This document shows positions 1,638 to 34,334 of a stretch of 34,334 nucleotides of DNA, one piece after another; position 1 is the stretch's first letter, and the number at the start of each line of letters is the position of its first letter. A program made the translations under genes and the position numbers. The notes beneath the pieces were generated by a model that searched no databases, had not been told where the DNA came from, and was given only the letters and a program-made list of their open reading frames with translations. This DNA is from Acidobacteriota bacterium (GTDB lineage Bacteria; Acidobacteriota; Terriglobia; Acidiferrales; UBA7541), in the NCBI GenBank assembly GCA_003223325.1, contig QHYS01000126.1, positions 1-34,334 of the forward strand. Direction: 5' to 3'.

Positions 1638-3317
1638 ATGAAAAAAATCCTATTGTGTGCGGCGCTACTTGGCTTCTGGGCCGCGCCGGCACTAAGCCAA
1701 ACGACGGAAGAGCTGAACAACGACGGCAAGAATACGGAAAACGTTCTCACCCAAAGCATGGGCTACGACCGAAAGAGCTACAGCCCGCTCAACCAAATCA
1801 ATAAATCCAACATCGAGCGGCTGGTGCCCATCTGGAACGCAAGCACCATGAATGAGCTGGGCGAGCTGGCGCAGCCGACGATTTACAACGGTGTGATGTA
1901 TGTCATCAACGGCAAGTGGACCTTTGCCATTGATGTGGAAACCGGCCGGCAAATCTGGCGCACGCCCGTGAAAATCGAACCAGGAATCAAGCACGTGGCT
2001 TTCAATCGAGGCGCGGCGACGATTTATAACGGCAAGGTCTTTCGTGTGACAATCGATAATCATGTGCTTGCGCTCGACATGAAGACCGGCAAAGAACTTT
2101 GGAATCAGAGATTCGCCGACTGGAAAGAGGGCTACTACGCCACCGGCGGACCGATCGTTGCCAACGGCGTGCTGATTTCCGGGGTGTCCGGCGGAGAATC
2201 CACCACACGCGGATTCCTCGACGGCTGGGACCCAGACACTGGAAAGAAATTGTGGCGCAGATACACTATCCCGGCTCCGGGGGAGCCCGGTTCGGAGACA
2301 TGGCCGAAGAACAGCGACGCCTGGAAGTACGGCGGAGGGCCGACGTGGCGCTCCGGTTCGTATGATCCCGAACTCGATCTCGTTTATTGGGGCACCGGCA
2401 ACGCGGAACCGTACGATCCGAGACCCCGCGAAGCTCTGGATAGCCTGTTCACGTCCAGCGTTCTCGCGATACGGCCGAAAACTGGTGAGGTTGTTTGTTA
2501 TTTTCAGTACACGCCCAATGACATTTACGACGTAGACGGCACCGACGAGCAGGTGCTTGGGGACATGCAGATTGGCGGACAGCGCCGGAAAGTAATGATT
2601 CAGACCAACAAAAACGGCTTCATGTATGTGCTGGACCGCACGAACTGCAAACTGATCGCAGCGCATGCGTACGTCAAAGTCAACTGGGCCACGCAGATCG
2701 ACCCACAAACCGGCCGGCCGGTGTTGACCGACCTACAGGGGCGCTTTCGAGCCGGCGAGGAAGTGGAAATCTGGCCTTCGCGGGGCACCAATGCCGTGCC
2801 CATCGCGTTCAATCCGGAGACCGGAATCATCTACGCGAGCACGTGGCAGGTGCCACGAATACAGAAGCTCGCACCGCCGCCCAAGAAGCCACAAGAAATC
2901 GGCAAGACCTCAACCGGTATCGTTGCCAGAGAGCCGAAAATGAAGCCAGACGATGTCTTCGGTCACTTCCTGGCGATCAATCCGGTGACCGGCGAAAAGA
3001 AATGGGAGATTCCCTTAACGGAGCTGCCAAGTTCAGCCGGCATGCTGGCGACGGGCGGCGGGCTTATCTTCACCGGGAAAATGACCGGTGAGTTCCTGGC
3101 GCTCGACGAAGACACTGGGAAAACACTTTGGCAGTTCAAGACCGGCTCGAGCGTCAACTCGACGGCGATCACCTATACCCACAACGGGCGCCAGTATGTG
3201 ACCATTGCGTCAGGACTCGGCGGCGCGCTCGCCACTCGCTTTGGCGCGGCGAAAGTACCGGCCGGCGGCTCGATCTGGACGTTTGCGTTGTTTCCGGTGA
3301 CGACCAGCACACGTTGA
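1638..3317 (+). CDS. Secreted PQQ-dependent alcohol dehydrogenase, lanthanide-type active site
   Basis: A 559-aa quinoprotein of the methanol/ethanol dehydrogenase family, which oxidises alcohols in the periplasm and passes electrons to a cytochrome. The ATG at 1638 is chosen because GGAGGAG lies directly upstream; a GTG at 1623 would overlap that site. A Sec signal (residues 1-20, cut after ALS) precedes an eight-bladed propeller with repeated tryptophan-docking motifs such as TGKELW and TGKKLW. Metal-site residues are visible: Glu187 (GGES), Asn255 (GTGN) and the catalytic Asp298 in NDIYDVDG. Asp300, two residues later, is the extra ligand that marks lanthanide-dependent XoxF/PedH-like enzymes; calcium enzymes have Ala there. 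The vicinal Cys-Cys pair of typical family members is replaced by Lys118-His119 (before NRG). There is no C-terminal haem domain and no xoxG/xoxJ neighbour. The family call is firm; the substrate is unknown. Confidence 0.93.
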   Translation: MKKILLCAALLGFWAAPALSQTTEELNNDGKNTENVLTQSMGYDRKSYSPLNQINKSNIERLVPIWNASTMNELGELAQPTIYNGVMYVINGKWTFAIDVETGRQIWRTPVKIEPGIKHVAFNRGAATIYNGKVFRVTIDNHVLALDMKTGKELWNQRFADWKEGYYATGGPIVANGVLISGVSGGESTTRGFLDGWDPDTGKKLWRRYTIPAPGEPGSETWPKNSDAWKYGGGPTWRSGSYDPELDLVYWGTGNAEPYDPRPREALDSLFTSSVLAIRPKTGEVVCYFQYTPNDIYDVDGTDEQVLGDMQIGGQRRKVMIQTNKNGFMYVLDRTNCKLIAAHAYVKVNWATQIDPQTGRPVLTDLQGRFRAGEEVEIWPSRGTNAVPIAFNPETGIIYASTWQVPRIQKLAPPPKKPQEIGKTSTGIVAREPKMKPDDVFGHFLAINPVTGEKKWEIPLTELPSSAGMLATGGGLIFTGKMTGEFLALDEDTGKTLWQFKTGSSVNSTAITYTHNGRQYVTIASGLGGALATRFGAAKVPAGGSIWTFALFPVTTSTR

Positions 3318-3556: not shown

Positions 3557-5053
3557 TCACTGTGCCACGTTCGAAACCGGCGCCCCCGGGTCCGTGAGTG
3601 GTTTTGCGCCCAACTTGACAAGCAGATCCGCGGTATTCTGGTGGGAGTTTCGTGGCCTTAAGTCTTTATCCTTAGCCACTCCAGGCGTCATAACCTCCGC
3701 TGCGATCGTCCAGGCCGTCTGTCCATACCGGTTCTCTGCGTCCACCTTCGCGCCCTTTTCCACTAGGAACTGAACGATATCGTTCGCTCCCACATATGCT
3801 GCACCGTGCAGCGCGGTCTCACCGATATCATTTGTGCCGTTGACATCTGCACCGAGCTCTACCGCAATCTTGACAGCTTCGAGGGCGTTCTTGTCATCTT
3901 CCTCGGGTCGCAGGACCGCGTGTGTTATTCCTTCTGCGAAACCCGCCGCCATAATCAGCGGGGTGTTTTTGGCTTCATCCGTCAGCGATGGATCGGCGCC
4001 GGCGGCTACCAGGAGACGCATAATGACCGGATCGTAGCTTGCGGCTGCCAGCAAAAACGGCGTAGCGCCAACCGGTGTGAGATCGATTAGTTTGAACTGC
4101 CTGGTGTTGGGCATGGGAGGGAACTTCGCGACTCGAGCATTTGGATTCGCGCCATGTGCTAGGAGCGCCTTCACCAGTTCGGGCATGTTCGGCCGGTACA
4201 CGTAGTCCGCACCGGAAATGGGTCTTACCCCTGAGACGCGTGCGAGCCCCTTCAGCACTGCGTAGTGCAAGGCGGTAATCCCATAGGCGTCCGCCGCGTT
4301 CGAGTCCGCGCCCTTCTCCAGCAAAAATAATGCCAGCGCCTCGTGGCCGCTATGGGTGGCCACCACCAGAGCGCTGCCTTCCTCCGGCGCGGCCTCATTC
4401 ACGTTTGCTCCCACTTCGACCAGCATCCGCGCCGATTCCATATCGCCTTGCTGCGCAGCAAACAGCAAGGGCGTAAAACCACTCGTGGAACGAGCATGGA
4501 CATCCGCTCCGTGATCTATCAGCGTCCTCGCGACTTCCGGGTGTTTTTCCGCCACGGCCCACATTAGAGCAGTTTGTCCGCGTGGGTTGTCCTTCGCATT
4601 AACGTCCGCCCCATGAACCAGCAGTGATTTCACCATGTCCACGTTGCCCGTGCGAGCGGCCGTCATGAGCACAGGCGTTCCCGTCGGAACGCCGTTTGGA
4701 TCCGCCCCGGCCTTCAAGAGCTTCTCGACCATGGCCGCGCTCTGGTTGATGCAAGCCAGCGCGAGAGGAGTCACGCCATAGCTGTTCGCCGCGTTCACGT
4801 TGGCGCCGGCACGAATCAGAAGGTCCACCGTTTCCGTATCATCCCAGTGAGCTGCCCAGGCCAGTGCCGTCGCGCCATCTGCCTGAGGCGTATTCACATC
4901 GACGTGTTGCTTCAGCAACGAACGTACGGCTTCGCGGTCTCGGTTCTTCGCCGCGTCCACCAGCCGAAGATCGCTGCTGGTGCCGGCAAAGCTCGCGATC
5001 GATAGCAAAGGTGCCACCCACCAGATCCCTAACTTTCTAAATTTGATGCTCAT
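3557..5053 (-). CDS. Secreted ankyrin-repeat protein
   Basis: A 498-aa protein with a signal peptide (hydrophobic stretch WWVAPLLSIASFAG, residues 11-24), followed by about 11 ankyrin repeats running almost to the C terminus. Typical units are GQTALMWAVAEKHPEVARTL and GADVNAKD. Ankyrin repeats form protein-binding solenoids; no catalytic domain is visible. Two repeats carry insertions: one with SGADYVYRP after LKGLARVSGVRP, and one with RPEEDDKN. The start has a GAGGA site 7-8 nt upstream. It lies 115 bp downstream of the DUF1552 gene on the same strand and is probably part of the same transcription unit as DUF1592/DUF1552, a gene association common in Acidobacteriota. Its likely role is as a periplasmic scaffold or binding partner of those proteins; this is inference. 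Confidence 0.9.
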   Translation of the reverse strand: MSIKFRKLGIWWVAPLLSIASFAGTSSDLRLVDAAKNRDREAVRSLLKQHVDVNTPQADGATALAWAAHWDDTETVDLLIRAGANVNAANSYGVTPLALACINQSAAMVEKLLKAGADPNGVPTGTPVLMTAARTGNVDMVKSLLVHGADVNAKDNPRGQTALMWAVAEKHPEVARTLIDHGADVHARSTSGFTPLLFAAQQGDMESARMLVEVGANVNEAAPEEGSALVVATHSGHEALALFLLEKGADSNAADAYGITALHYAVLKGLARVSGVRPISGADYVYRPNMPELVKALLAHGANPNARVAKFPPMPNTRQFKLIDLTPVGATPFLLAAASYDPVIMRLLVAAGADPSLTDEAKNTPLIMAAGFAEGITHAVLRPEEDDKNALEAVKIAVELGADVNGTNDIGETALHGAAYVGANDIVQFLVEKGAKVDAENRYGQTAWTIAAEVMTPGVAKDKDLRPRNSHQNTADLLVKLGAKPLTDPGAPVSNVAQ

Positions 5054-5168: not shown

Positions 5169-6527
5169 CTAGTCTATGGAAATCGGCTCGAGTTTCCCGG
5201 CGCTGCTCACCAGGGTTTCCACGGGAACCCCAGCCACATCCAACAAGGTCCCGTATAGGTTGTGCATCGGCGTATTCGTCGGATACTGCAGGTGGCGTCC
5301 ACCCTTGATCTTGCCCGACCCTCCACCCGCCAGCAGGGTTGACACGTTATCATGTGAATGCAGGTTGCCGTCGCTCAGGCCGGCGCCATAGAGGACCACC
5401 ACGTGGTCCAGTAGAGTGCCATCACCGTCAGGCGTATTCTTCAGTTTCTCCAAGAAATACGCGAGCATACTGATATGGTGCGTGTTGATCTTAACCACCT
5501 TGGCGATTTTGCCGGGATCGCCGCCATGATGCGTCAAGGGGTGGTGTGAATCGGGGATGCCGAGCTCTGGGTAGGACCGGGTTGTCGTTTCGTGGCCCAA
5601 CATGAAGGTCGAAACGCGGGTCATGTCAGTCTGGAAGGCCAAGGCCTGCAAGTCGAGCATTAATTTGGCGTGCTCTTCAAACGTCGCGGGGATGCCACCC
5701 ATGGGTCGCTCCACCACCGGCAAGTCCCGCGAGGACTGCTCTTCGGCCAACTGGATTCGCCGCTCGACATCGCGAATGGCATCCAGATACTCGGTGACTT
5801 TGGCACGGTCGCTCGAACCGAGCCCCTTCAGGATGCCGCTTGCATCCTGGAAAAGGGAGTCGAGGATGCTGCGCTCACTTCGGATTCGGGCGAGCCGCAC
5901 CTTCGGATCAGTGCTATTACTGTCGCCGAATTGGTTCTCGAACACGGCGCGCGGCTGGTTCTCCATCGGCATCGGCGTCGTGGGAGTGCGCCATGAGAGC
6001 GTGTTCGTGTAAGCGCAGCTATAGCCGGTTTCGCATTCGCCGATCGTCTCAGTAGAGTCCAGAGAGAGCTCGAGCGAAGCCAACTGGGTGCGCTTACCGA
6101 GTTCCTTTGCAGCAATCTGATCCAATGAAGTTCCGGCCTGCAGATCGGCGCCTTCCGTCTGCTTGGCGTGAACACCCGTCAGGAACGACGTGGCGGCTCG
6201 GGAATGATCTCCCCCTCCCTCGCCCGGCTGTGGATGACCCTCCGGGTGGCAGAGGCCGCTCAGCACGAGAAGATGATCCCGAAATGCCGTCAGCGGCTCC
6301 AGAATCGGGGTGATCTCCAGAGCACCCACCTTCGCTGGCGACCACTCGTGGTGCAGATTCATGATTCCGTTCGGAACATACATGAACGCCATGCGCGTAA
6401 CCGGCTTGGCGACCTCGGCAGCGGATGCCAATGCCGGTATCATGCCGTCCAGCAGCGGCAATCCCAATGTCACACCCAAGCCTCGAAGAAACGTGCGGCG
6501 GGGCAAACTCTTCTTGGTGATGATCAT
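5169..6527 (-). CDS. DUF1552 family Tat-exported protein
   Basis: A 452-aa member of the DUF1552 family. It opens with a twin-arginine signal (LPRRTFLRGLGVTLGLPLLDG) typical of this family, then FMYVPNGI and a long alpha/beta body. Histidine-rich stretches occur in the second half (DSHHPLTHHGGD, LHSHDNVS, and GLSDGNLHSHD near the C terminus). These resemble those of DUF1501/sulfatase-like alkaline-phosphatase-superfamily proteins and may bind metal. The biochemical function is not established. The ATG overlaps the TGA of the upstream DUF1592 gene (ATGA), so the two are translationally coupled and probably act together. Export in folded form via Tat suggests a cofactor or metal loaded in the cytoplasm. 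Confidence 0.92.
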   Translation of the reverse strand: MIITKKSLPRRTFLRGLGVTLGLPLLDGMIPALASAAEVAKPVTRMAFMYVPNGIMNLHHEWSPAKVGALEITPILEPLTAFRDHLLVLSGLCHPEGHPQPGEGGGDHSRAATSFLTGVHAKQTEGADLQAGTSLDQIAAKELGKRTQLASLELSLDSTETIGECETGYSCAYTNTLSWRTPTTPMPMENQPRAVFENQFGDSNSTDPKVRLARIRSERSILDSLFQDASGILKGLGSSDRAKVTEYLDAIRDVERRIQLAEEQSSRDLPVVERPMGGIPATFEEHAKLMLDLQALAFQTDMTRVSTFMLGHETTTRSYPELGIPDSHHPLTHHGGDPGKIAKVVKINTHHISMLAYFLEKLKNTPDGDGTLLDHVVVLYGAGLSDGNLHSHDNVSTLLAGGGSGKIKGGRHLQYPTNTPMHNLYGTLLDVAGVPVETLVSSAGKLEPISID

Positions 6528-9241
6528 GGCTTTGACTCCCTCGTAACTTGATTTTGAGTTACCGTGGTCTTGGCTTTACCGGCGGGCTCCTGCGGCTTGC
6601 TCATTCTCATCTGAAACGGCGCGCTGTTGACGATCCCCGTGATTATTGACGACCACTGATAGTTGCTGGAAGCGGCTTCCCGCGTGATCTTGCGGATGGC
6701 CGGTTGATCGTAATACTCCACCCCCCGGCCTAGGGCGTAAGTGAGCAGCCTGTCGATGACAGTATTCGCGAATTGTTCCGGATGGCTCAGCAATACCTTC
6801 CGAAGCTCAGCCGGACCGTTAAACTTAACGCCGTTGGGCAGCACTCCTGACGCATCGACCGGGGTGTGGGCCTCGCTGATGGTTCGCCATTGGCCCACGC
6901 CGTTGAAGTTTTCCATCGCGAAGCCCAGCGGGTCCATCTGAGCGTGACAAACCGCGCAGGCGGGATTCGCACGGTGTTGCTCCATCCGCTCGCGCATCGT
7001 CAGGACTTTGCCGTTCGGGGGAATTTCCTTGAGAGACGGAACGTCGGGCGGCGGGGGCGGGGGCGGCGTGCCCAGGACGTTAGTCAGCAACCACTTGCCG
7101 CGGATAGTCGGCGAGGTTCGGTTGGCATAGGAGGTTACAGTCAGAATACTGCCTTGGCCCAGCAGTCCTCTTCGCTCTTCGTGATCGTCCAACGATACAC
7201 GCCGAAAGTGGCTGCCATAGACATTTGAAATTCCGTAAAAACGGGCCAGACGTTCGTTGAGGAATGTATAGTCCGCATCGAGTAAGTTCAGCACGCTGCG
7301 ATTTTCGCGCAGATTGCTTTCCAGGAAAAGCTGCGTCTCTTGCTCGAATGCAGTGCGCAGGTTCTCGTCAAATTCGGGGAAGGCATCCTGATCCGGATGT
7401 ACCCCCGGCATGTTGCGTAGATACAGCCATTGTCCAAAGAAATTGGTCACCAGAGCATTCGACCGCGAATCCGCCAGCATGCGCCGCACCTGCTGTTCCA
7501 AGACCGCAGGCTCTTTCAGCTTACCGCCCGCGGCCAGGTTCAGAAGCTGGTTGTCGGGTATGCTGCTCCAGAGGAAGAATGACAAACGAGAGGCGAGTTC
7601 GAGATTGCTGATTCGATACGCAGTGCCCGGCGCCACGTTCGCCGGATCGTGTTCGATGCGGAAGAGGAACTCCGGGGAAACCAGGATTCGTTCCAAAGCC
7701 ATTTCGATTCCCGTCTCGAAGCCCCCATCCTTTCGGCCAACCTTGTAGAGGTTGAGCAGAGGCTGGATGTCTCCCTCAGTGACAGGCCGGCGATAGGCGC
7801 TGCGCGCCAGCCGGGAGAGAATCTTGCTGGCGCAAGGAGGCTCGTCCGCGCTGGTAGCTGGCCGGCACACAAAAATCTTGCGGCGACTGGGCGTCTCTCC
7901 CAGGCCTTTGGGGTTATAAGGTCCGCCGATCGAGACTTGCGACACGGCCGGAGTATCCTCTTTGGTCCCGGGCGAATCGCTTCTTCCCTCGGACGATTTA
8001 TCGAGAAGCCTATATTCTGCCAGTGGCGAGTCGAGCGTACCTTCACGTTCCCACGTGTCATTCAGGAAGTTGACCCCAACCAGGCGCGTACCCGCCTTCG
8101 CCGGGAAGCGGACTTCCAGATGCGCATCCGCCGTGTCCCCCGAGAAATCGTATCCGAACTTCTTTTTCGCGGGAGCCCCGGCTGCCGACGCATCATTCCT
8201 AGGCTGCTCGCCCCCAACCGTGAACAGCTTGATTCTTGTGCCATCCAGGCGAACATCGAGCTGATGAGGGTCGGTGAGGCCAATGATCTGCTTATCGTGT
8301 TCGATGCCCGCTCTTTGCAAGCGGATTTTGATAACGTACTCGCCATCGACCGGGAAGTTGTGCCGGATCGCAACTCCACCACGCGAGCCAAACGGGAGAT
8401 CCTCGCTCATGCGCTCATCTTGCGCGAGCAGATAAGGAACGTCGTACGTCTCCAAATTTGGAAGGATATTTGGATCTCCGATGGCCGAGCGACTCACCTT
8501 CCCTGCCGCTGACATGTATCGCACCAGCAGCACCGGCGATACGGAGAGAACATCGGCAATGTTGTCAAAGCCGTAGCCCGAATCATCGACGGGAAGAAGC
8601 GATTCAACGTCGACATCACTCGCAAGCAAGTCACGGATGGCGTTGGTGTATTCCGCCCGGTTGAGTCGATGAACGGCGACTCTACCGGGATTAGGCTTGG
8701 CCAGCGCAGCGTGGTCGAGAGCTGTCTCCAGGTAGGTGGCGAAGGCTTCGTAAGTGGCCTTGTCCGGCCGCGGCATACCCGCGGGCGGCATCGCCCCAGT
8801 CCGAAGCTTGCCGATAACCTTTTCCCATACCTCCGCCCCTGCTGGTACATTCGCGACGTCCACCTTACTTAGGACCAGTCCTGCCGTACGCAGTTGATCG
8901 TTGTGGCAGACGACGCAATATTGATTGAGAACGGCGCGGTAGGGAGCGGCGGTCGACGCATCAGGACTAGCCGAGCGCGGCGTAATCGGGATAGCGCCGT
9001 GTTGCGCTAATGCCTTCACGGGCTGTCTGTTGTTCGCACTCGCAGCCGTCGAAGCCACAGGCGCGCTGTTTTGGGGCGGAGCAGCTTTGAGAACAGCGGC
9101 GGACCCAACAAACATGATCGCCGCCAACAGTGCCGTTATTGCAATAGAGGCTGGCCGTGGCCAGCTCGATTTGGGCATAACAATCGCGAGGAGGAATCTC
9201 AGGGCAGGCCTTACATCCTCCGCCAGGGAATCATAGGTCAC
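6524..9241 (-). CDS. DUF1587/DUF1592/DUF1588/DUF1585 multidomain cytochrome-like protein
   Basis: A 905-aa envelope protein. A GTG start at 9241 is supported by GGAGG 7 nt upstream. Residues about 31-53 form a signal or anchor helix, preceded by an unusually long N-terminal stretch. A c-type haem motif CVVCH at 109-113 begins the planctomycete-cytochrome-like part, followed by DUF1587 (NRAEYTNAIRDLL), a beta-rich carbohydrate-binding-like insert (about 280-420), DUF1592 (RLSFFLWSSIPD), DUF1588 with a second CAVCH motif at 762-766 (AQMDPLGFAMENF), and DUF1585 near the C terminus. The protein probably binds one or two haems in the periplasm; its reaction is unknown. The 4-nt overlap with DUF1552 indicates a functional pair. 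A proline run (PPPPPPPDVP) links DUF1592 and DUF1588. Confidence 0.92.
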   Translation of the reverse strand: MTYDSLAEDVRPALRFLLAIVMPKSSWPRPASIAITALLAAIMFVGSAAVLKAAPPQNSAPVASTAASANNRQPVKALAQHGAIPITPRSASPDASTAAPYRAVLNQYCVVCHNDQLRTAGLVLSKVDVANVPAGAEVWEKVIGKLRTGAMPPAGMPRPDKATYEAFATYLETALDHAALAKPNPGRVAVHRLNRAEYTNAIRDLLASDVDVESLLPVDDSGYGFDNIADVLSVSPVLLVRYMSAAGKVSRSAIGDPNILPNLETYDVPYLLAQDERMSEDLPFGSRGGVAIRHNFPVDGEYVIKIRLQRAGIEHDKQIIGLTDPHQLDVRLDGTRIKLFTVGGEQPRNDASAAGAPAKKKFGYDFSGDTADAHLEVRFPAKAGTRLVGVNFLNDTWEREGTLDSPLAEYRLLDKSSEGRSDSPGTKEDTPAVSQVSIGGPYNPKGLGETPSRRKIFVCRPATSADEPPCASKILSRLARSAYRRPVTEGDIQPLLNLYKVGRKDGGFETGIEMALERILVSPEFLFRIEHDPANVAPGTAYRISNLELASRLSFFLWSSIPDNQLLNLAAGGKLKEPAVLEQQVRRMLADSRSNALVTNFFGQWLYLRNMPGVHPDQDAFPEFDENLRTAFEQETQLFLESNLRENRSVLNLLDADYTFLNERLARFYGISNVYGSHFRRVSLDDHEERRGLLGQGSILTVTSYANRTSPTIRGKWLLTNVLGTPPPPPPPDVPSLKEIPPNGKVLTMRERMEQHRANPACAVCHAQMDPLGFAMENFNGVGQWRTISEAHTPVDASGVLPNGVKFNGPAELRKVLLSHPEQFANTVIDRLLTYALGRGVEYYDQPAIRKITREAASSNYQWSSIITGIVNSAPFQMRMSKPQEPAGKAKTTVTQNQVTRESKP

Positions 9242-13028: not shown

Positions 13029-14237
13029 CTATTGCGCCTTCAGCGGCGCTGGCCTGCCGAACTTCGCCCCGCTCACCGGGACGTTCGTTTTTATCTCGTT
13101 CAGCACGATCGAATCGCGTCCATCCAGCCACGCGTAGGTTATACGAAATGGTAATTTGACGCCGTTAACGTCTCGATAATCAGCAAAGTCAATTTGCGTG
13201 GGAACGCGCCCGATCGGTGAGTTGCCATAGCGCAACTCACGTAAAAGCAGGCCGGTCTTCCTGTCGAAGTACAACGTTACGAGAAGGCCCCTCGGCCCGT
13301 TCCCCTGGATCACGTCGACGTCGTGAGTCTGCCCCAACGTTACGTCCTTCTGGAGCGTCGATTGACTGGATGGCGCAGGAAGATCGGTGATCGTAGCGGG
13401 CGGGCCGGTTTTCAAATTCGTGAGAACCTGCTTGATCTGTCCCGGAAAGGATAACTGAGCGTCTAGCCTGGCCCCGTCCAGATCGCCGCCGCTCAGCTGA
13501 AACTCCCCTAACACATTGAGTGGTGTTCTTACCCAACCGGTGCGGCCGTCGTAGGTCCTGATCTGGTCTCCGCGGCCAGGCGCGTCCTTGAATAAAATGA
13601 TCGTGGCGCGCTTGTCCGGGGCTTCTGCGACAAGTTCGACGTCGCCACCGCCGCCGAATCCTCCGAACCCCACGCTAGTCCCCCTGCCAACAAAGCTGGT
13701 GAGGCCGGCTAAGCGTTGGGCTCCACCAGCCGCCTGAATATATTTGTCGAGAACCGACTCAGCAGGAGGCATTCCCTCGGCCTGTTGGATAACGTCGTCC
13801 GGCTCTATGGTTACCGTGCCGTAAATGGTGTCCATAACGGGCGTGACTAGCGGTTTGTCGCGGTTACGATGACAGGTCCAGCAGGTCACCATCTGGCGGC
13901 CCGCGAAGTTATTTTTGTTAATGTTGGCAACCATGGTGATCATGATGCGCGCCATGATTTTGCGCTGAGTGTCGGCTGGCCAATCTACTTGGTCGGTCCC
14001 GGCCCCGACATGACAATCCGAGCAGTCGAAGTCAAGGGAGGCTGACATGACGCCCATCGTCTCCATGAAATCGTCCACGGGGATTCCCTTGAGCACCTGA
14101 ATATTCTTGAAGGCCTGTTCGGCCAGAAGCGGTTTCTCTTGCGACCCGGTCTGGGCGATCGCAAATGCAACGCCGAGCAACCCTACGGCCGCAATTCCAG
14201 AGGCCACAACGATCCTTCGTCTAGACCATAACTTCAT
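13029..14237 (-). CDS. Reaction-centre-type cytochrome c subunit homologue with C-terminal beta domain
   Basis: A 402-aa secreted di-haem c-type cytochrome. After an N-terminal signal or anchor (residues 10-29), NIQVLKGIPVDDFMETMG leads into CSDCH (72-76) and CWTCH (119-123), the arrangement of the photosynthetic reaction-centre cytochrome subunit family. That subunit in phototrophs has four haems; only two motifs are present here and no reaction-centre genes are nearby, so it serves another electron-transfer role. Met residues in the intervening helix could be axial ligands. From about residue 160 there is a LolA-like beta domain (LLLRELRYG, DYRDVNGVKLPF, LNEIKTNVPV) that resembles the N-terminal domain of the MBL-fold protein at 15526. 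First gene of the operon ending with DUF6152. Confidence 0.88.
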   Translation of the reverse strand: MKLWSRRRIVVASGIAAVGLLGVAFAIAQTGSQEKPLLAEQAFKNIQVLKGIPVDDFMETMGVMSASLDFDCSDCHVGAGTDQVDWPADTQRKIMARIMITMVANINKNNFAGRQMVTCWTCHRNRDKPLVTPVMDTIYGTVTIEPDDVIQQAEGMPPAESVLDKYIQAAGGAQRLAGLTSFVGRGTSVGFGGFGGGGDVELVAEAPDKRATIILFKDAPGRGDQIRTYDGRTGWVRTPLNVLGEFQLSGGDLDGARLDAQLSFPGQIKQVLTNLKTGPPATITDLPAPSSQSTLQKDVTLGQTHDVDVIQGNGPRGLLVTLYFDRKTGLLLRELRYGNSPIGRVPTQIDFADYRDVNGVKLPFRITYAWLDGRDSIVLNEIKTNVPVSGAKFGRPAPLKAQ

Positions 14238-30270: not shown

Positions 30271-30774
30271 CTAGCGTCCTGCCGGTGCGACGACCGCATT
30301 AATCCCGCCAACGGGAGGGTGGCCGGGAGGGAGTGACGGAGCGGGAGCCGGACCGATCTGAAAACTCCTCAAGGTATCCGCCAGCGAGTGGCTCGGCCCC
30401 GAGACCCCAGGGGTCTGGGAGGTTTGGCCCGGGTTGAGACCCGGATGGGAGAAGTTACTGCCGACCGGATCGCTTTCGATCACCGACCAAGCGCCCTCGC
30501 GCTTTTCCAATGAGTAGGTCAATTGCATGGCGCCCGGGCCACCTTTCGCGCGGAACTCCACCTGGGCCGTAGCATGGTCGCCTTGCAGGTTCACTTGTTT
30601 CACATCAGTGTCGAAGGCTTGCAGGTTCAGCGATCCCTGATGGGCCAAGTGGGCCTGAATGGCGGTTCGGATGCTAGCCTCCGGCCCTTGGGTTTCCGAT
30701 GCCGCAGGCTCCCCATGGTTCTTACAGCCGACCAGGAGGCTGGCCAAAAGCACCCACAGAACCATGGTTTTCAT
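30271..30774 (-). CDS. Small lipoprotein of unknown function
   Basis: A 167-aa protein. The start at 30774 (MKTMVLWVLLASLLVGC) gives a type-II signal with lipobox LVGC and Cys17 as lipidation site; a longer frame upstream runs through the preceding gene and is rejected. Residues about 35-110 form a small alpha+beta domain (IRTAIQAHLAHQGSLNLQAF, ATAQVEFRA, LTYSLEKREGAWSVIES) of the NTF2-like or DUF4878-like kind. The last 55 residues are Pro/Gly/Ser rich and probably disordered (PAPAPSLPPGHPPVGG). It begins 11 bp after the di-haem membrane protein gene, suggesting a subunit attached to it. Confidence 0.78.
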   Translation of the reverse strand: MKTMVLWVLLASLLVGCKNHGEPAASETQGPEASIRTAIQAHLAHQGSLNLQAFDTDVKQVNLQGDHATAQVEFRAKGGPGAMQLTYSLEKREGAWSVIESDPVGSNFSHPGLNPGQTSQTPGVSGPSHSLADTLRSFQIGPAPAPSLPPGHPPVGGINAVVAPAGR

Positions 30775-30785
30775 ATCCGGTAGCC

Positions 30786-31736
30786 TCAGTAGTAGCCCAG
30801 CATGAGCATCAGGATCACGTGAATCGATGCCAGTACCGCAAAAGAGTAACTGAACGGCCGGTGGATGATGTGCCAGAGATGCAGCATGCGGTGGGATTTC
30901 GACAGGAAGAGGATCTTTTTCGCCAGCAGCGTTTGCTCGCGCGCCATGCTGATGGCCCGTTCCAGAACCGCGTTTTCCCCTCGCCCCAACCCTACCAGCG
31001 ACCACAAGCGGCGCTCGGACCACAGCATCTTTTGGCGCAGCCGCCAGATCCGCAGCGGAAATCCCACATCAAACAGCAGCATCCTCCCCAAAACCCCCAG
31101 CAGCGAAATCGACTGTACTCGTTTCATGTCCGGCAGCCGCAGCAATCCGTCAATATCCCGCGACGACAGAATCCCCGTGTTCTTCAACTGCGTGGCCGTC
31201 CGCAGACTCTGTTCCTGAGCCTCCTGAAGCGACAATTCCGCGGAATTCAGGCTCCGCGGTATCTGCGCGTAGATGTAGCGCCCCACTACGCCACTCAGGG
31301 CCACCACGATCATGATCCCGTAGGCCACTCCGGCGATCCCGCTGAACTTGAACGAGGAGTGAAAGGTGACGACCACCGGCGCTACCAATCCGAGTAAAAC
31401 GTGGAAGTCCAGCCAGCGCTTGGAGCTTCCCTGCCGCCCCAGCCAGGCCCATTTCTTACGCAGCGGGTAGAGATAGATAAACAAAAACAGCAGCACTCCG
31501 AACAGCCCCAAGCGCAAGCCGATGGCTCCGCTCGGTTTCAGATAATCATGTTTGGGCGAAAGCGCACGCTGCGCCGCAGACGACCAATAGTAACTCAATC
31601 CGTACACCAGCATCGCCATCGTGCCCGCTGCAGCCACCAGGTAGGCCAGCCGCAGCCGCACGCGATGCATGCGATCGGGATCCGCTAAAGACCCTACTCT
31701 CGTTGGCGTCGTGGGCAGAGTCAGATTGATGCTCAT
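30786..31736 (-). CDS. Predicted transmembrane di-haem b protein
   Basis: A 316-aa inner-membrane protein with about five helices (residues 31-50, 73-92, 111-130, 132-155, 295-315). His112 and His126 in the third helix, and His292 and His306 in the last, are each 14 residues apart. This is the spacing by which two helices clamp two stacked b haems in cytochrome b, ferric-reductase and cytochrome b561 type proteins. An extra His289 lies at the last helix entrance (HLWHIIHRPF). A 130-residue cytoplasmic region rich in Arg/Leu separates helices 4 and 5; no flavin or NAD site is visible. It probably moves electrons across the membrane. Co-transcribed with a lipoprotein and an outer-membrane barrel. 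The exact family is not recognised. Confidence 0.78.
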   Translation of the reverse strand: MSINLTLPTTPTRVGSLADPDRMHRVRLRLAYLVAAAGTMAMLVYGLSYYWSSAAQRALSPKHDYLKPSGAIGLRLGLFGVLLFLFIYLYPLRKKWAWLGRQGSSKRWLDFHVLLGLVAPVVVTFHSSFKFSGIAGVAYGIMIVVALSGVVGRYIYAQIPRSLNSAELSLQEAQEQSLRTATQLKNTGILSSRDIDGLLRLPDMKRVQSISLLGVLGRMLLFDVGFPLRIWRLRQKMLWSERRLWSLVGLGRGENAVLERAISMAREQTLLAKKILFLSKSHRMLHLWHIIHRPFSYSFAVLASIHVILMLMLGYY

Positions 31737-31764
31737 GGCTGTAACACCTGCTCCTGGGTATTCT

Positions 31765-32592
31765 TTACTGAGAAGCGCTGGGCTGCGACACCTGCTCCGT
31801 CGTATTTACGGAGAAGCGCTTATAGGCCGAAAACACGTGCGTGTTGCGCCAGTGCTGATGGCGCGATTCCACCTCCACCGTGGTGTGCGCCGGTAGCCAG
31901 TAGGTGCCCGGGACGCTCCGAAAGGAAACCGGCGCATATTCGATCTCACAGTGCATCGTGCGCAGTCCCACGTCTTCCATTTCTGTACCGATCTGAGCGG
32001 CAATCTTCTCGATCACTCCACTGCTCGGGTCGATCCAAGCCGTGCCGGAAATCTCCAGAGGATACTCGCGTCCGCGCACCGCCAGGGCCGCCGGCGATCG
32101 CGTCCCGGGTATATGCTGGAAATGCACTTCGCTCAGAGCCCCTCCGGTAGCGCTTTCTGGCTTCCCCGGGCGGAATTGGAAACTGCCCGCGTAATACGGA
32201 TGAAACACCAGCAGCAGCATGGAGAATCCGTTGCTCACCAAAAGCGGCGCTTTCTCGTGAACCTCTTTGTTCGCATCCGCCGCCACACGCGATTCCACCA
32301 AATTCAATTCCCCGCCCGTATTGGACAACAACACCAGATAGTCAAAGGCAGACTCGCGTTTCTCCATGGTTTTGCCGTTCTCCGCGATCCTCTCCTGGGT
32401 CAGGCGTTCGGTGCAATTGACCTCGGAGATGGTATCCAGAAACGCAGCAACATTGCTGCTGGCGCGGTCCAGCAGTTCTTGAAAGGAATTCCCTGCGCCA
32501 CCCGCCGCAGCGCAGCACATCCCCGCCCCCAGCAGCACGGCCAGCAATCCTCGCCCTCCCCACCCCAACCTCGTGGCCCCTGCTCTCTTCAT
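31765..32592 (-). CDS. Secreted protein of unknown function
   Basis: A 275-aa protein whose ATG (32592) overlaps the stop of the barrel gene as ATGA. Residues about 12-30 form a signal (GGRGLLAVLLGAGMCCAAAG), possibly a lipoprotein signal because two Cys follow a small residue. The mature part starts NSFQELLDRASSNVAAFLD, then NCTERLTQERI, and a beta-rich body (SGTAWIDPSSGVIEKIAAQI, CEIEYAPVSFRSVPGTYWLP) similar to secreted proteins of Acidobacteriota whose fold resembles LolA or outer-membrane lipoprotein carriers. No catalytic motif seen. The overlap suggests a complex with the barrel protein. Confidence 0.8.
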   Translation of the reverse strand: MKRAGATRLGWGGRGLLAVLLGAGMCCAAAGGAGNSFQELLDRASSNVAAFLDTISEVNCTERLTQERIAENGKTMEKRESAFDYLVLLSNTGGELNLVESRVAADANKEVHEKAPLLVSNGFSMLLLVFHPYYAGSFQFRPGKPESATGGALSEVHFQHIPGTRSPAALAVRGREYPLEISGTAWIDPSSGVIEKIAAQIGTEMEDVGLRTMHCEIEYAPVSFRSVPGTYWLPAHTTVEVESRHQHWRNTHVFSAYKRFSVNTTEQVSQPSASQ

Positions 32593-34334
32593 TTGCGCTT
32601 CCACTTCGAGTCGAATCGATATCCCAACATCAACATCCACTGGTTATAGTTCTGTTGCTGACCTCGGTAGAAGGTGAAGCCTCCCTGCGTGAATAGAGAA
32701 GAGCCCACATCATTCTCCACCGTGGCCGTCACGAATCGTGCGCTCTGATTCCCCGCCAGGGTGGAGGTGAAGCCCTGGTCCCCGGCCAATATCTCCAAAC
32801 GCAGCCGCTCGTTTAGATTTCGCGACAGGCTGGCGGCCCGATAAGAGCCCGAGCCAAACGAACTGTCGAAGTGCGAATAGTGCAGGTCGGCGCGCAGGTC
32901 CAGCCAAGGAACCCGCCCAAAAGTCACCCCGTACATCGTGTTGAGCGCCATGCGGCTATCCCCGGTGCGGTTGCTGCGCCCCAGCTCGGTATAAATGGCA
33001 ATCGCCTTCACCAGGTCCACGCGCACTCCGCCGCTGAAGCCTTGAAACAGATACTTATCGAGCAGACCCGTCCCTACCAGGGTCGCATCGAACGTCGGTA
33101 TATTCCGGAAGTAGGTGTGGTTGAAGTCCAGTTGCACGCGCTGCACCGGGCTCCAGCGCATGGTGAAAAAGCTGCTGCCGATCCCCGCCCCGGGAGCCGC
33201 CACCGCGGCGTTTCCCGCAGGGCTATCGGTCTGCAACGCGCTGTAGAGGGAAAAATTGCGCCGGTAGGAAAGCGAATTTTCAAAGAAGAGAAAGGGCCGA
33301 TTGACCGCCCCACTCAGCAAGTTGATCCCCGCCCCGCTGGTGCTCGAATAGTGAAACGCCTCAAAGCTCCCCCCGCTGAAGTTCACAAATCCCCCGCCAA
33401 TTTGCCGGTTGGGACTGTAGTTCCAGGAGGTCGGGTCGGGCGTGGAGCCTGCAAAAATCCCCGTGATCACCCCAGAATGCAGGCGGCGTCCCAAATATCC
33501 CCCGTCGATGGTGTCCAGGCTGTTGGCCCACGGCAGATACAGCCGGCCGAACCCAGCCACCCAGGCCCCAGTGGGATTGTCGTAGATCAGCCCCAAATGA
33601 TAGGTGCGGTTGATCAATTGCTGCAGCGTCGTCTGGGAGGCCGCCGAGGTCGAGTTGATGGTCCCGCGATAGTATCCCTGAAAGTTCCAGTAGCTCCCCC
33701 CGATGCGGGTGAAGTCCGCACGCAGTACCACCCCCAAATCTCTGCCATTGGCCTGCGAAGCATCCAGGCTGTGCGTGCCGAAGTAATCGAAGCCCAGCCG
33801 TCCTTGCATGCGGTTCACCGAGGGCAGCGGCGGCCGCGGAACATCCTGCACCCGGGCCTCTTCATCGAGTGCGTCATCCCCTTCGGTAAAGCTGATCACC
33901 GCCGGATACTTCCGCGTGGAACTGAGCGAGTGCTGTTGCACCAGCGCCTGCAGATCGCTATCGGAAAGATAGGCCAAGTCTCCGACCACCACATCGCGCT
34001 CGAGCACATGGATCTCGGTGACCGCGGAGGTCTCGGCGATGCCCACCACTGTCAGTTCGGCGACCATCGCAGCCGGGGACGCGCTGGCTGGCGCCGCTCC
34101 ATCGGGGCCTGCATTCACCACCACCAGCTTCATCCCTTCGGCTATCCCCTCGTTTCGTCCCGCATCGATGTAGGCGGCATCCTGCTGCACGAATTTCACG
34201 TGGAAAACCGTCCGCAGACCGGGATTCGGAACGGTCGGGCCAGCTCTAAGTTCGGCTGCTGCGCCCACAACCCCAGCCGTACTCCGCCGCTGGTCTTCCA
34301 CCGCACCGCCTGCTGCGGGCGCCACAGGCGTGGC
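32589..34334 (-). CDS. Outer-membrane beta-barrel protein with N-terminal SH3-like domain (5' end outside the window)
   Basis: The frame stays open to the window edge (at least 582 codons), so the true start and signal peptide lie beyond 34334. The N-terminal part holds a small beta domain (FVQQDAAYIDAGRNEGIAEG, KLVVVN) like the periplasmic SH3-type modules that precede barrels. From about residue 170, alternating aromatic strands fill the rest: LGFDYFGTHSL, YWNFQGYYRGTIN, WVAGFGRLYLPWANSLDTID, GGVRVDLVKAIAIYTELG and FTFYRGQQQNYNQWMLMLGY. This is typical of a porin-like or assembly barrel with about 20 strands. The end (YRFDSKWKRK) is unusually basic and lacks a terminal aromatic. First visible gene of the operon with the di-haem b protein. 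Function unknown. Confidence 0.82.
   Translation of the reverse strand, partial: ATPVAPAAGGAVEDQRRSTAGVVGAAAELRAGPTVPNPGLRTVFHVKFVQQDAAYIDAGRNEGIAEGMKLVVVNAGPDGAAPASASPAAMVAELTVVGIAETSAVTEIHVLERDVVVGDLAYLSDSDLQALVQQHSLSSTRKYPAVISFTEGDDALDEEARVQDVPRPPLPSVNRMQGRLGFDYFGTHSLDASQANGRDLGVVLRADFTRIGGSYWNFQGYYRGTINSTSAASQTTLQQLINRTYHLGLIYDNPTGAWVAGFGRLYLPWANSLDTIDGGYLGRRLHSGVITGIFAGSTPDPTSWNYSPNRQIGGGFVNFSGGSFEAFHYSSTSGAGINLLSGAVNRPFLFFENSLSYRRNFSLYSALQTDSPAGNAAVAAPGAGIGSSFFTMRWSPVQRVQLDFNHTYFRNIPTFDATLVGTGLLDKYLFQGFSGGVRVDLVKAIAIYTELGRSNRTGDSRMALNTMYGVTFGRVPWLDLRADLHYSHFDSSFGSGSYRAASLSRNLNERLRLEILAGDQGFTSTLAGNQSARFVTATVENDVGSSLFTQGGFTFYRGQQQNYNQWMLMLGYRFDSKWKRK

Follow-up and report, generated by a model that had tools for sequence, protein, structure and literature searches.

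The window analysed here is the whole of a 34,334-nucleotide contig (C105) from a 6.1-Mb acidobacterial genome, and the contig breaks inside an operon, at the barrel gene A at position 34334. An earlier note on this DNA had described a four-gene operon encoding a barrel, a secreted protein, a membrane protein and a lipoprotein, two of the genes overlapping as ATGA. All four genes were found on the minus strand, and the overlap is formed by the stop codon of A and the start codon of B. The features are as follows:

32589..34334, minus strand: A, outer-membrane beta-barrel (porin), truncated at the N-terminus by the contig end (predicted model, fold matches, 25-member family)
32589..32592, minus strand: ATGA overlap of the A stop and B start (translational coupling)
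31765..32592, minus strand: B, secreted protein of 275 aa with signal peptide (15-member alignment)
30786..31736, minus strand: C, putative inner-membrane di-haem b protein with five helices, of the PCC3 'IMP' type (alignment, model, motifs)
30271..30774, minus strand: D, lipoprotein with lipobox LVGC, an optional member (minority of close loci)
34334: contig end within the operon (in the sister genome, L027, MHC2 and MHC1 come next, with F divergent)

None of the four proteins was named with confidence by Pfam or NCBIfam, and the nearest named relative of C, with 93% identity, comes from the metagenome genome 'Acidobacteria bacterium gp2 AA84'. Four-base overlaps between A and B and between B and C recur among the homologous loci. 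The predicted model of A has a FlgT_C-like periplasmic part (approximately residues 43-123 of the fragment) and about 22 strands from residue 175 onwards, and its best Foldseek and VIA matches are outer-membrane barrels, in agreement with the barrel that the earlier note had read from the sequence; an MtrB-like barrel was not present among the fold matches listed. The full-length counterpart of this truncated protein in the sister genome has 855 residues, and the Pfam domains FlgT_C and AMIN were detected in nine and two of the 25 family members, respectively. Protein B contains conserved HPxY and QHWRNxHxF motifs, has no Pfam family, and separates A from C in all close acidobacterial loci that cover it; it is absent from seven distant acidobacterial loci. 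D was found in a minority of the close loci, and we propose that both are accessory proteins.

With regard to the 316-aa membrane protein C, the paired histidines noted earlier (H112/H126 and H292/H306, 14 residues between the members of each pair, in separate helices) were confirmed by the sequence and by an AlphaFold2 model (pLDDT 83) with five membrane helices, in which the first pair is part of helix 105-126 (TM3) and the second of helix 278-312 (TM5). Conservation of these residues, on which the earlier note had made its reading depend, was complete, as all four are invariant in 26/26 aligned homologues, down to 20-25% identity. They belong to two WX3HX13H motifs (W108-H112-H126 and W288-H292-H306), both present in 25 of the 26 members (L041 lacks the first W), and an SGXXG motif is present as SGVVG at 148-152. 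Loop 155-277 is probably cytoplasmic by the positive-inside rule, and therefore H112/H292 would be the ligands of an inner, cytoplasm-side b haem and H126/H306 those of an outer, periplasm-side b haem, if C binds haem as predicted. Matches to Ferric_reduct, Ni_hydr_CYTB and DUF4405 in the C family are all below the Pfam thresholds; that to PF01794 (Ferric_reduct) is seen as a weak match in 10/26 members, with the C protein of the window scoring 15.3 bits against a gathering score of 28. Foldseek gave no significant fold match for the C model, and in VIA the best relevant hit was the di-haem cytochrome Dcytb (5zle; Z 6.3, rmsd 2.8 Å, 124 residues), a weak match below the level trusted for helical bundles.

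We compared the neighbours of A-B-C in 30 close homologous loci, which allowed the sequence beyond the contig end to be assessed. Two multihaem cytochrome genes, MHC1 and MHC2, immediately precede A-B-C in the same orientation in 22 of these, MHC2 alone is present up to the contig start in three, and the other five contigs end before this point. Multihaem cytochromes are hence directly upstream of the barrel in all 25 loci where the contig reaches further, without a counterexample, which is what the earlier note had suggested looking for past position 34334. MHC1 has 23 CxxCH motifs in most loci, almost all of them invariant and accompanied by about as many further histidines, as for bis-His haems, whereas MHC2 has 17-51 CxxCH motifs (contig-cut or broken copies aside), arranged in repeats of approximately 73 residues with three CxxCH each at a spacing of 32/16/25. 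Neither cytochrome, nor C, has a relative among the PDB sequences searched. The conduit of L041 (G058:C61:103000-122500) looks decayed, with an MHC2-like gene split in two (5 and 23 CxxCH), a short MHC1 (19 CxxCH) and a barrel without its middle part.

The window's own genome is a special case, as protein and DNA searches of its assembly detected neither MHC1 nor MHC2, while the same searches do detect them in the sister genome (L027), where the genes upstream of the barrel are MHC2 (18 CxxCH), MHC1 (23 CxxCH) and then F, a flavo-iron-sulfur protein gene in divergent orientation. Contig C287 is colinear with the sister genome up to a point inside F and the window resumes inside the barrel, leaving approximately 5 kb unassembled, and it is this gap between C287 and C105 that accounts for the missing cytochromes; we infer from the sister genome and the other relatives that both genes belong there. 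The end of C287, the end of C132 and the start of C55 (L054, L052 and L051 in genome G000) all lie in nearly the same stretch of F, and for this reason the genome probably carries F in two or more close copies, a repeat that broke the assembly beside the operon.

The distribution of these genes is near all-or-none: of 61 related genomes, the same 17 carry the barrel and clade-I C, with MHC1 in 16 of these 17, the only exception being the genome of the window. Together with the invariant histidines, the upstream cytochromes support the trans-envelope electron route that the earlier note had put forward, and we consider an electron conduit across the envelope highly likely. Multihaem cytochromes can also be reductases (although no catalytic site was recognised here), and more distant, 10-haem relatives of the module were seen without this barrel, so that the operon could encode a periplasmic reductase or a haem-storage system, with the barrel as substrate or efflux channel for the reduction of soluble substrates. 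The strict linkage of barrel and cytochromes in the large-haem clade makes this very improbable, as does the variation of MHC2 between 17 and 51 haem motifs through repeat number, which is wire-like and unlike an enzyme.

The flavo-iron-sulfur protein F (two representatives have 449-504 aa) combines a single membrane helix at its N-terminus with two cluster motifs of the ferredoxin type and an FAD/NAD(P) domain like that of thioredoxin reductase, and resembles YpdA-type bacillithiol disulfide reductase and thioredoxin reductases below the NCBIfam cut-off. It is part of the cluster in 26/30 close loci, and was not found near the cluster in three Bryobacterales/Solibacteraceae loci (L024-L026). 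The earlier statement that no flavin enzyme is present is correct for the window, because the contig ends inside the operon, but does not hold for the operon itself. As F belongs to the system, the electron donor is probably cytoplasmic NAD(P)H. A paralogue of F is encoded elsewhere in the window's genome (C203), and therefore F could serve other acceptors. The second cluster motif of F reads C-x2-H-x2-C-x3-C in nearly all members (for example L027:8350-9696, minus strand), with a histidine where a cluster-binding cysteine is expected.

Among 297 genomes drawn from the whole phylum, about 12 would carry the conduit of this clade, and a plasmid search identified the set in a second phylum, on plasmid pEMTOL02 (NC_018749) of Emticicia oligotrophica DSM 17448 (Bacteroidota). 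The genes are on one strand in the order ccsA, C, F, MHC1, MHC2 and barrel, placing F between C and MHC1. The C and barrel proteins match the C (A1) and barrel (A3) profiles with E-values of 1e-61 and 9e-21, F and MHC1 have 41% and 37% identity, and MHC1 and MHC2 contain 23 and 40 haems, respectively. Protein B is missing from Emticicia, which therefore defines the core as C-F-MHC1-MHC2-A. In this locus (L104, NC_018749.1 67314-96129) the conduit operon is near plasmid replication genes and has its own cytochrome c biogenesis gene, ccsA; the operon is possibly a mobile electron-transfer cassette.

The earlier note had not recognised the system, yet its features match those of the porin-cytochrome conduit PCC3, as set out by He et al. 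2017 (PMC5566968). The inner-membrane protein of PCC3 has approximately 300 aa, five helices, SGXXG on TM4 and WX3HX13H on TM3 and TM5, and is encoded together with a porin and two multihaem c-type cytochromes with medians of 21 and 34 haems; the five helices, SGXXG and two WX3HX13H motifs of C agree with this. As in PCC3, a cytochrome of about 21-27 haems and a longer, repeat-rich one share the cluster with an outer-membrane beta-barrel porin (here MHC1 with mostly 23, MHC2 with 17-51 in the relatives, and a barrel of about 22 strands), although the porins of PCC3 are reported in the same text to have up to 42 predicted strands. The order in Sideroxydans (Slit_1446-1449; inner-membrane protein, cytochrome, cytochrome, porin; PMC12016527) is that of Emticicia minus F. 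By motifs and gene content the system is thus classed as an acidobacterial PCC3-type conduit, which differs from the described ones in having the NAD(P)H flavo-iron-sulfur protein F and the accessory proteins B and D. PCC3 was published in Proteobacteria with a proposed quinone link, and the available portion of that paper (PMC5566968) mentions neither an NAD(P)H partner nor Acidobacteria. We consider the presence of the conduit in Acidobacteriota and Bacteroidota, and its consistent association with F, to be new here. No paper placing PCC3 in Acidobacteriota or Bacteroidota was found in the literature searched, and a prior description in subdivision 2 Acidobacteria may exist; iron-reducing members of that subdivision were reportedly the subject of work by Epihov et al. 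in 2021.

Next we compared 35 more distant C loci, using a home-made gene caller and partner labels from BLAST and Pfam, so that single distant loci may be mislabelled. A multihaem cytochrome was present near C in 33/35, and an NAD(P)H/Fe-S module near or fused to C in 31/35, in five architectures: F (10 loci), a membrane-anchored FNR-type reductase with a [2Fe-2S] domain (7 loci), NuoEF/NuoG-like proteins (6 loci), TrxR-cNMP-polyferredoxin proteins (6 loci), and C itself fused to a cNMP-polyferredoxin protein (2 loci). In the latter two (L100:5325-7922 and L101:6684-9164), a single protein combines two cyclic-nucleotide-binding domains, a polyferredoxin and a C-type di-haem b domain, and the next gene in L100 joins FHA, 8 CxxCH, Fe-S and FAD/NAD(P) domains. 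In the C tree, the FNR, Nuo and fused partner types each form one supported group, well separated from each other, and the large-haem group including Emticicia has a support of 100/99. That one membrane protein has been paired repeatedly with enzymes of one kind that are not related to each other is our main reason for proposing that C is reduced by an Fe-S centre which lies in the cytoplasm and draws its electrons from NAD(P)H.

The same comparison bears on the possibility that the conduit is as described but that C exchanges electrons with the quinone pool, F being an independent neighbour. For PCC3, He et al. (PMC5566968) based a hypothesis of such a link on the analogy to bc1 and hydrogenase cytochrome b, and an NAD(P)H partner was not found near C in L098, L105, L115 and L118; in these, as in L024-L026 where F is not nearby, another donor such as quinol is possible. 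We nevertheless regard a quinone link as unlikely, given that F or an unrelated NAD(P)H/Fe-S module accompanies C in 26/30 close and 31/35 distant loci, that such partners recur in a second phylum and as gene fusions, and that we recognised no quinone enzyme among the genes of the close clusters, where most flanking genes are unannotated.

The best explanation of the four genes as a whole, which we consider likely, is that they make up the 3' portion of a porin-cytochrome conduit of the PCC3 type, fed by NAD(P)H via F. This proposal starts from the computed gene content, linkage, haem and His motifs, membrane helices, barrel fold, and flavin and Fe-S domains, and haem binding, donor, transfer order, direction and acceptor would then be as follows. 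Electrons from cytoplasmic NAD(P)H would enter the FAD of membrane-anchored F and pass through its two iron-sulfur clusters to the cytoplasm-side b haem of C (H112/H292), from which they would cross to the periplasm-side haem (H126/H306); MHC1 (23 haems) would carry them over the periplasm, and MHC2 (approximately 18-51 haems, in three-haem repeats of approximately 73 residues) would pass them through or beyond barrel A to an acceptor outside the cell, for example Fe(III)/Mn(IV) minerals or humic matter. The feed by NAD(P)H is the part we favour with reasonable but limited confidence, and we lean slightly less firmly towards the outward direction, both judged from sequence data. Outward flow runs down the membrane potential, and an NAD(P)H electron sink is thus expected more than an energy-conserving pump.

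Multihaem conduits can work in both directions, and electrons could also run inwards, from extracellular Fe(II), Mn(II) or partner cells through MHC2, barrel, MHC1 and C to F and NAD(P)+. With Fe(II) as donor, NAD(P)+ reduction is strongly uphill, and electrons entering across the inner membrane have to move against the membrane potential, which makes an inward conduit improbable. The first PCC3 systems came from Fe(II) oxidisers (PMC5566968), and this would fit the inward direction. Returning to outward transfer from NAD(P)H, a broader reading to which we give an even chance is that PCC3-type conduits and the wider di-haem b superfamily provide the electrons of cytoplasmic NAD(P)H with a way out that does not involve quinones, in which one wire receives electrons from several unrelated NAD(P)H/Fe-S dehydrogenases (TrxR-like with two [4Fe-4S], FNR-like with [2Fe-2S], complex-I-like, and polyferredoxin fusions) and passes them into multihaem cytochromes, across Acidobacteriota and on a Bacteroidota plasmid.

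Several other known systems share features with the one described here. The inner-membrane protein of PCC4 has the same motifs and one PCC4 subgroup has an Fe-S gene upstream, like the distant relatives described above, but PCC4 lacks an extracellular cytochrome and is considered a separate protein family by the authors (PMC5566968). MtrCAB/MtoAB and OmbB-OmaB-OmcB likewise combine a porin with periplasmic and surface multihaem cytochromes, but have 8-12 haems per protein and different inner-membrane partners. Identity with MtrAB/MtoAB was rejected, as MHC1, with its 23 haem motifs, scored 60.8 bits with the DmsE model (cut-off 192.2), neither Pfam nor NCBIfam matched the barrel to MtrB, and no Mtr family scored above its cut-off. 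The Geobacter extHIJKLMNOPQS cluster (PMC5877670) also contains a porin, several multihaem cytochromes and a cytochrome b, but differs in its cytochrome b/Rieske pair homologous to bc complexes, its selenite/tellurite phenotype and its haem numbers. The clearest report of porin-cytochrome conduits in Acidobacteriota that we found is that on a Holophaga genome, with conduits of the MtrB and ExtB/E types (PMC7399161). Members of PF01794 (ferric reductase, NADPH oxidase, MsrQ) resemble C in having two b haems on HX13H pairs and in moving NAD(P)H electrons through the membrane, whereas C is below the Pfam cut-off, has five helices, and has the flavin module on a separate protein, with the exception of the two distant loci where the Fe-S module is fused to C.

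Acidobacteriota rank among the most abundant bacteria of soil, and iron reduction is suspected in them. If our proposal is true, about 12 of 297 genomes of the phylum and 17 of 61 relatives carry the envelope-spanning wire of this clade. Given a consistent NAD(P)H partner, the 'inner membrane protein' of PCC3 becomes an enzyme that can be tested, and its proposed link to quinones is called into question; the system is directly testable in Emticicia oligotrophica DSM 17448, a cultured carrier with the operon on a plasmid.

Finally, some other genes were noticed in the window. A 392-aa protein with two CxxCH motifs, encoded at 13032-14207 on the minus strand, matches CytoC_RC (photosynthetic reaction-centre cytochrome c subunit family) with an E-value of 5e-11. 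At 5172-9115, also on the minus strand, a PSD/PSCyt3 (DUF1587/1592/1588/1585) cytochrome-type protein is adjacent to an HXXSHH (DUF1552) protein; this pair is followed by an ankyrin-repeat protein at 3560-5053, and a PQQ-type beta-propeller protein is encoded at 1638-3314 on the plus strand.
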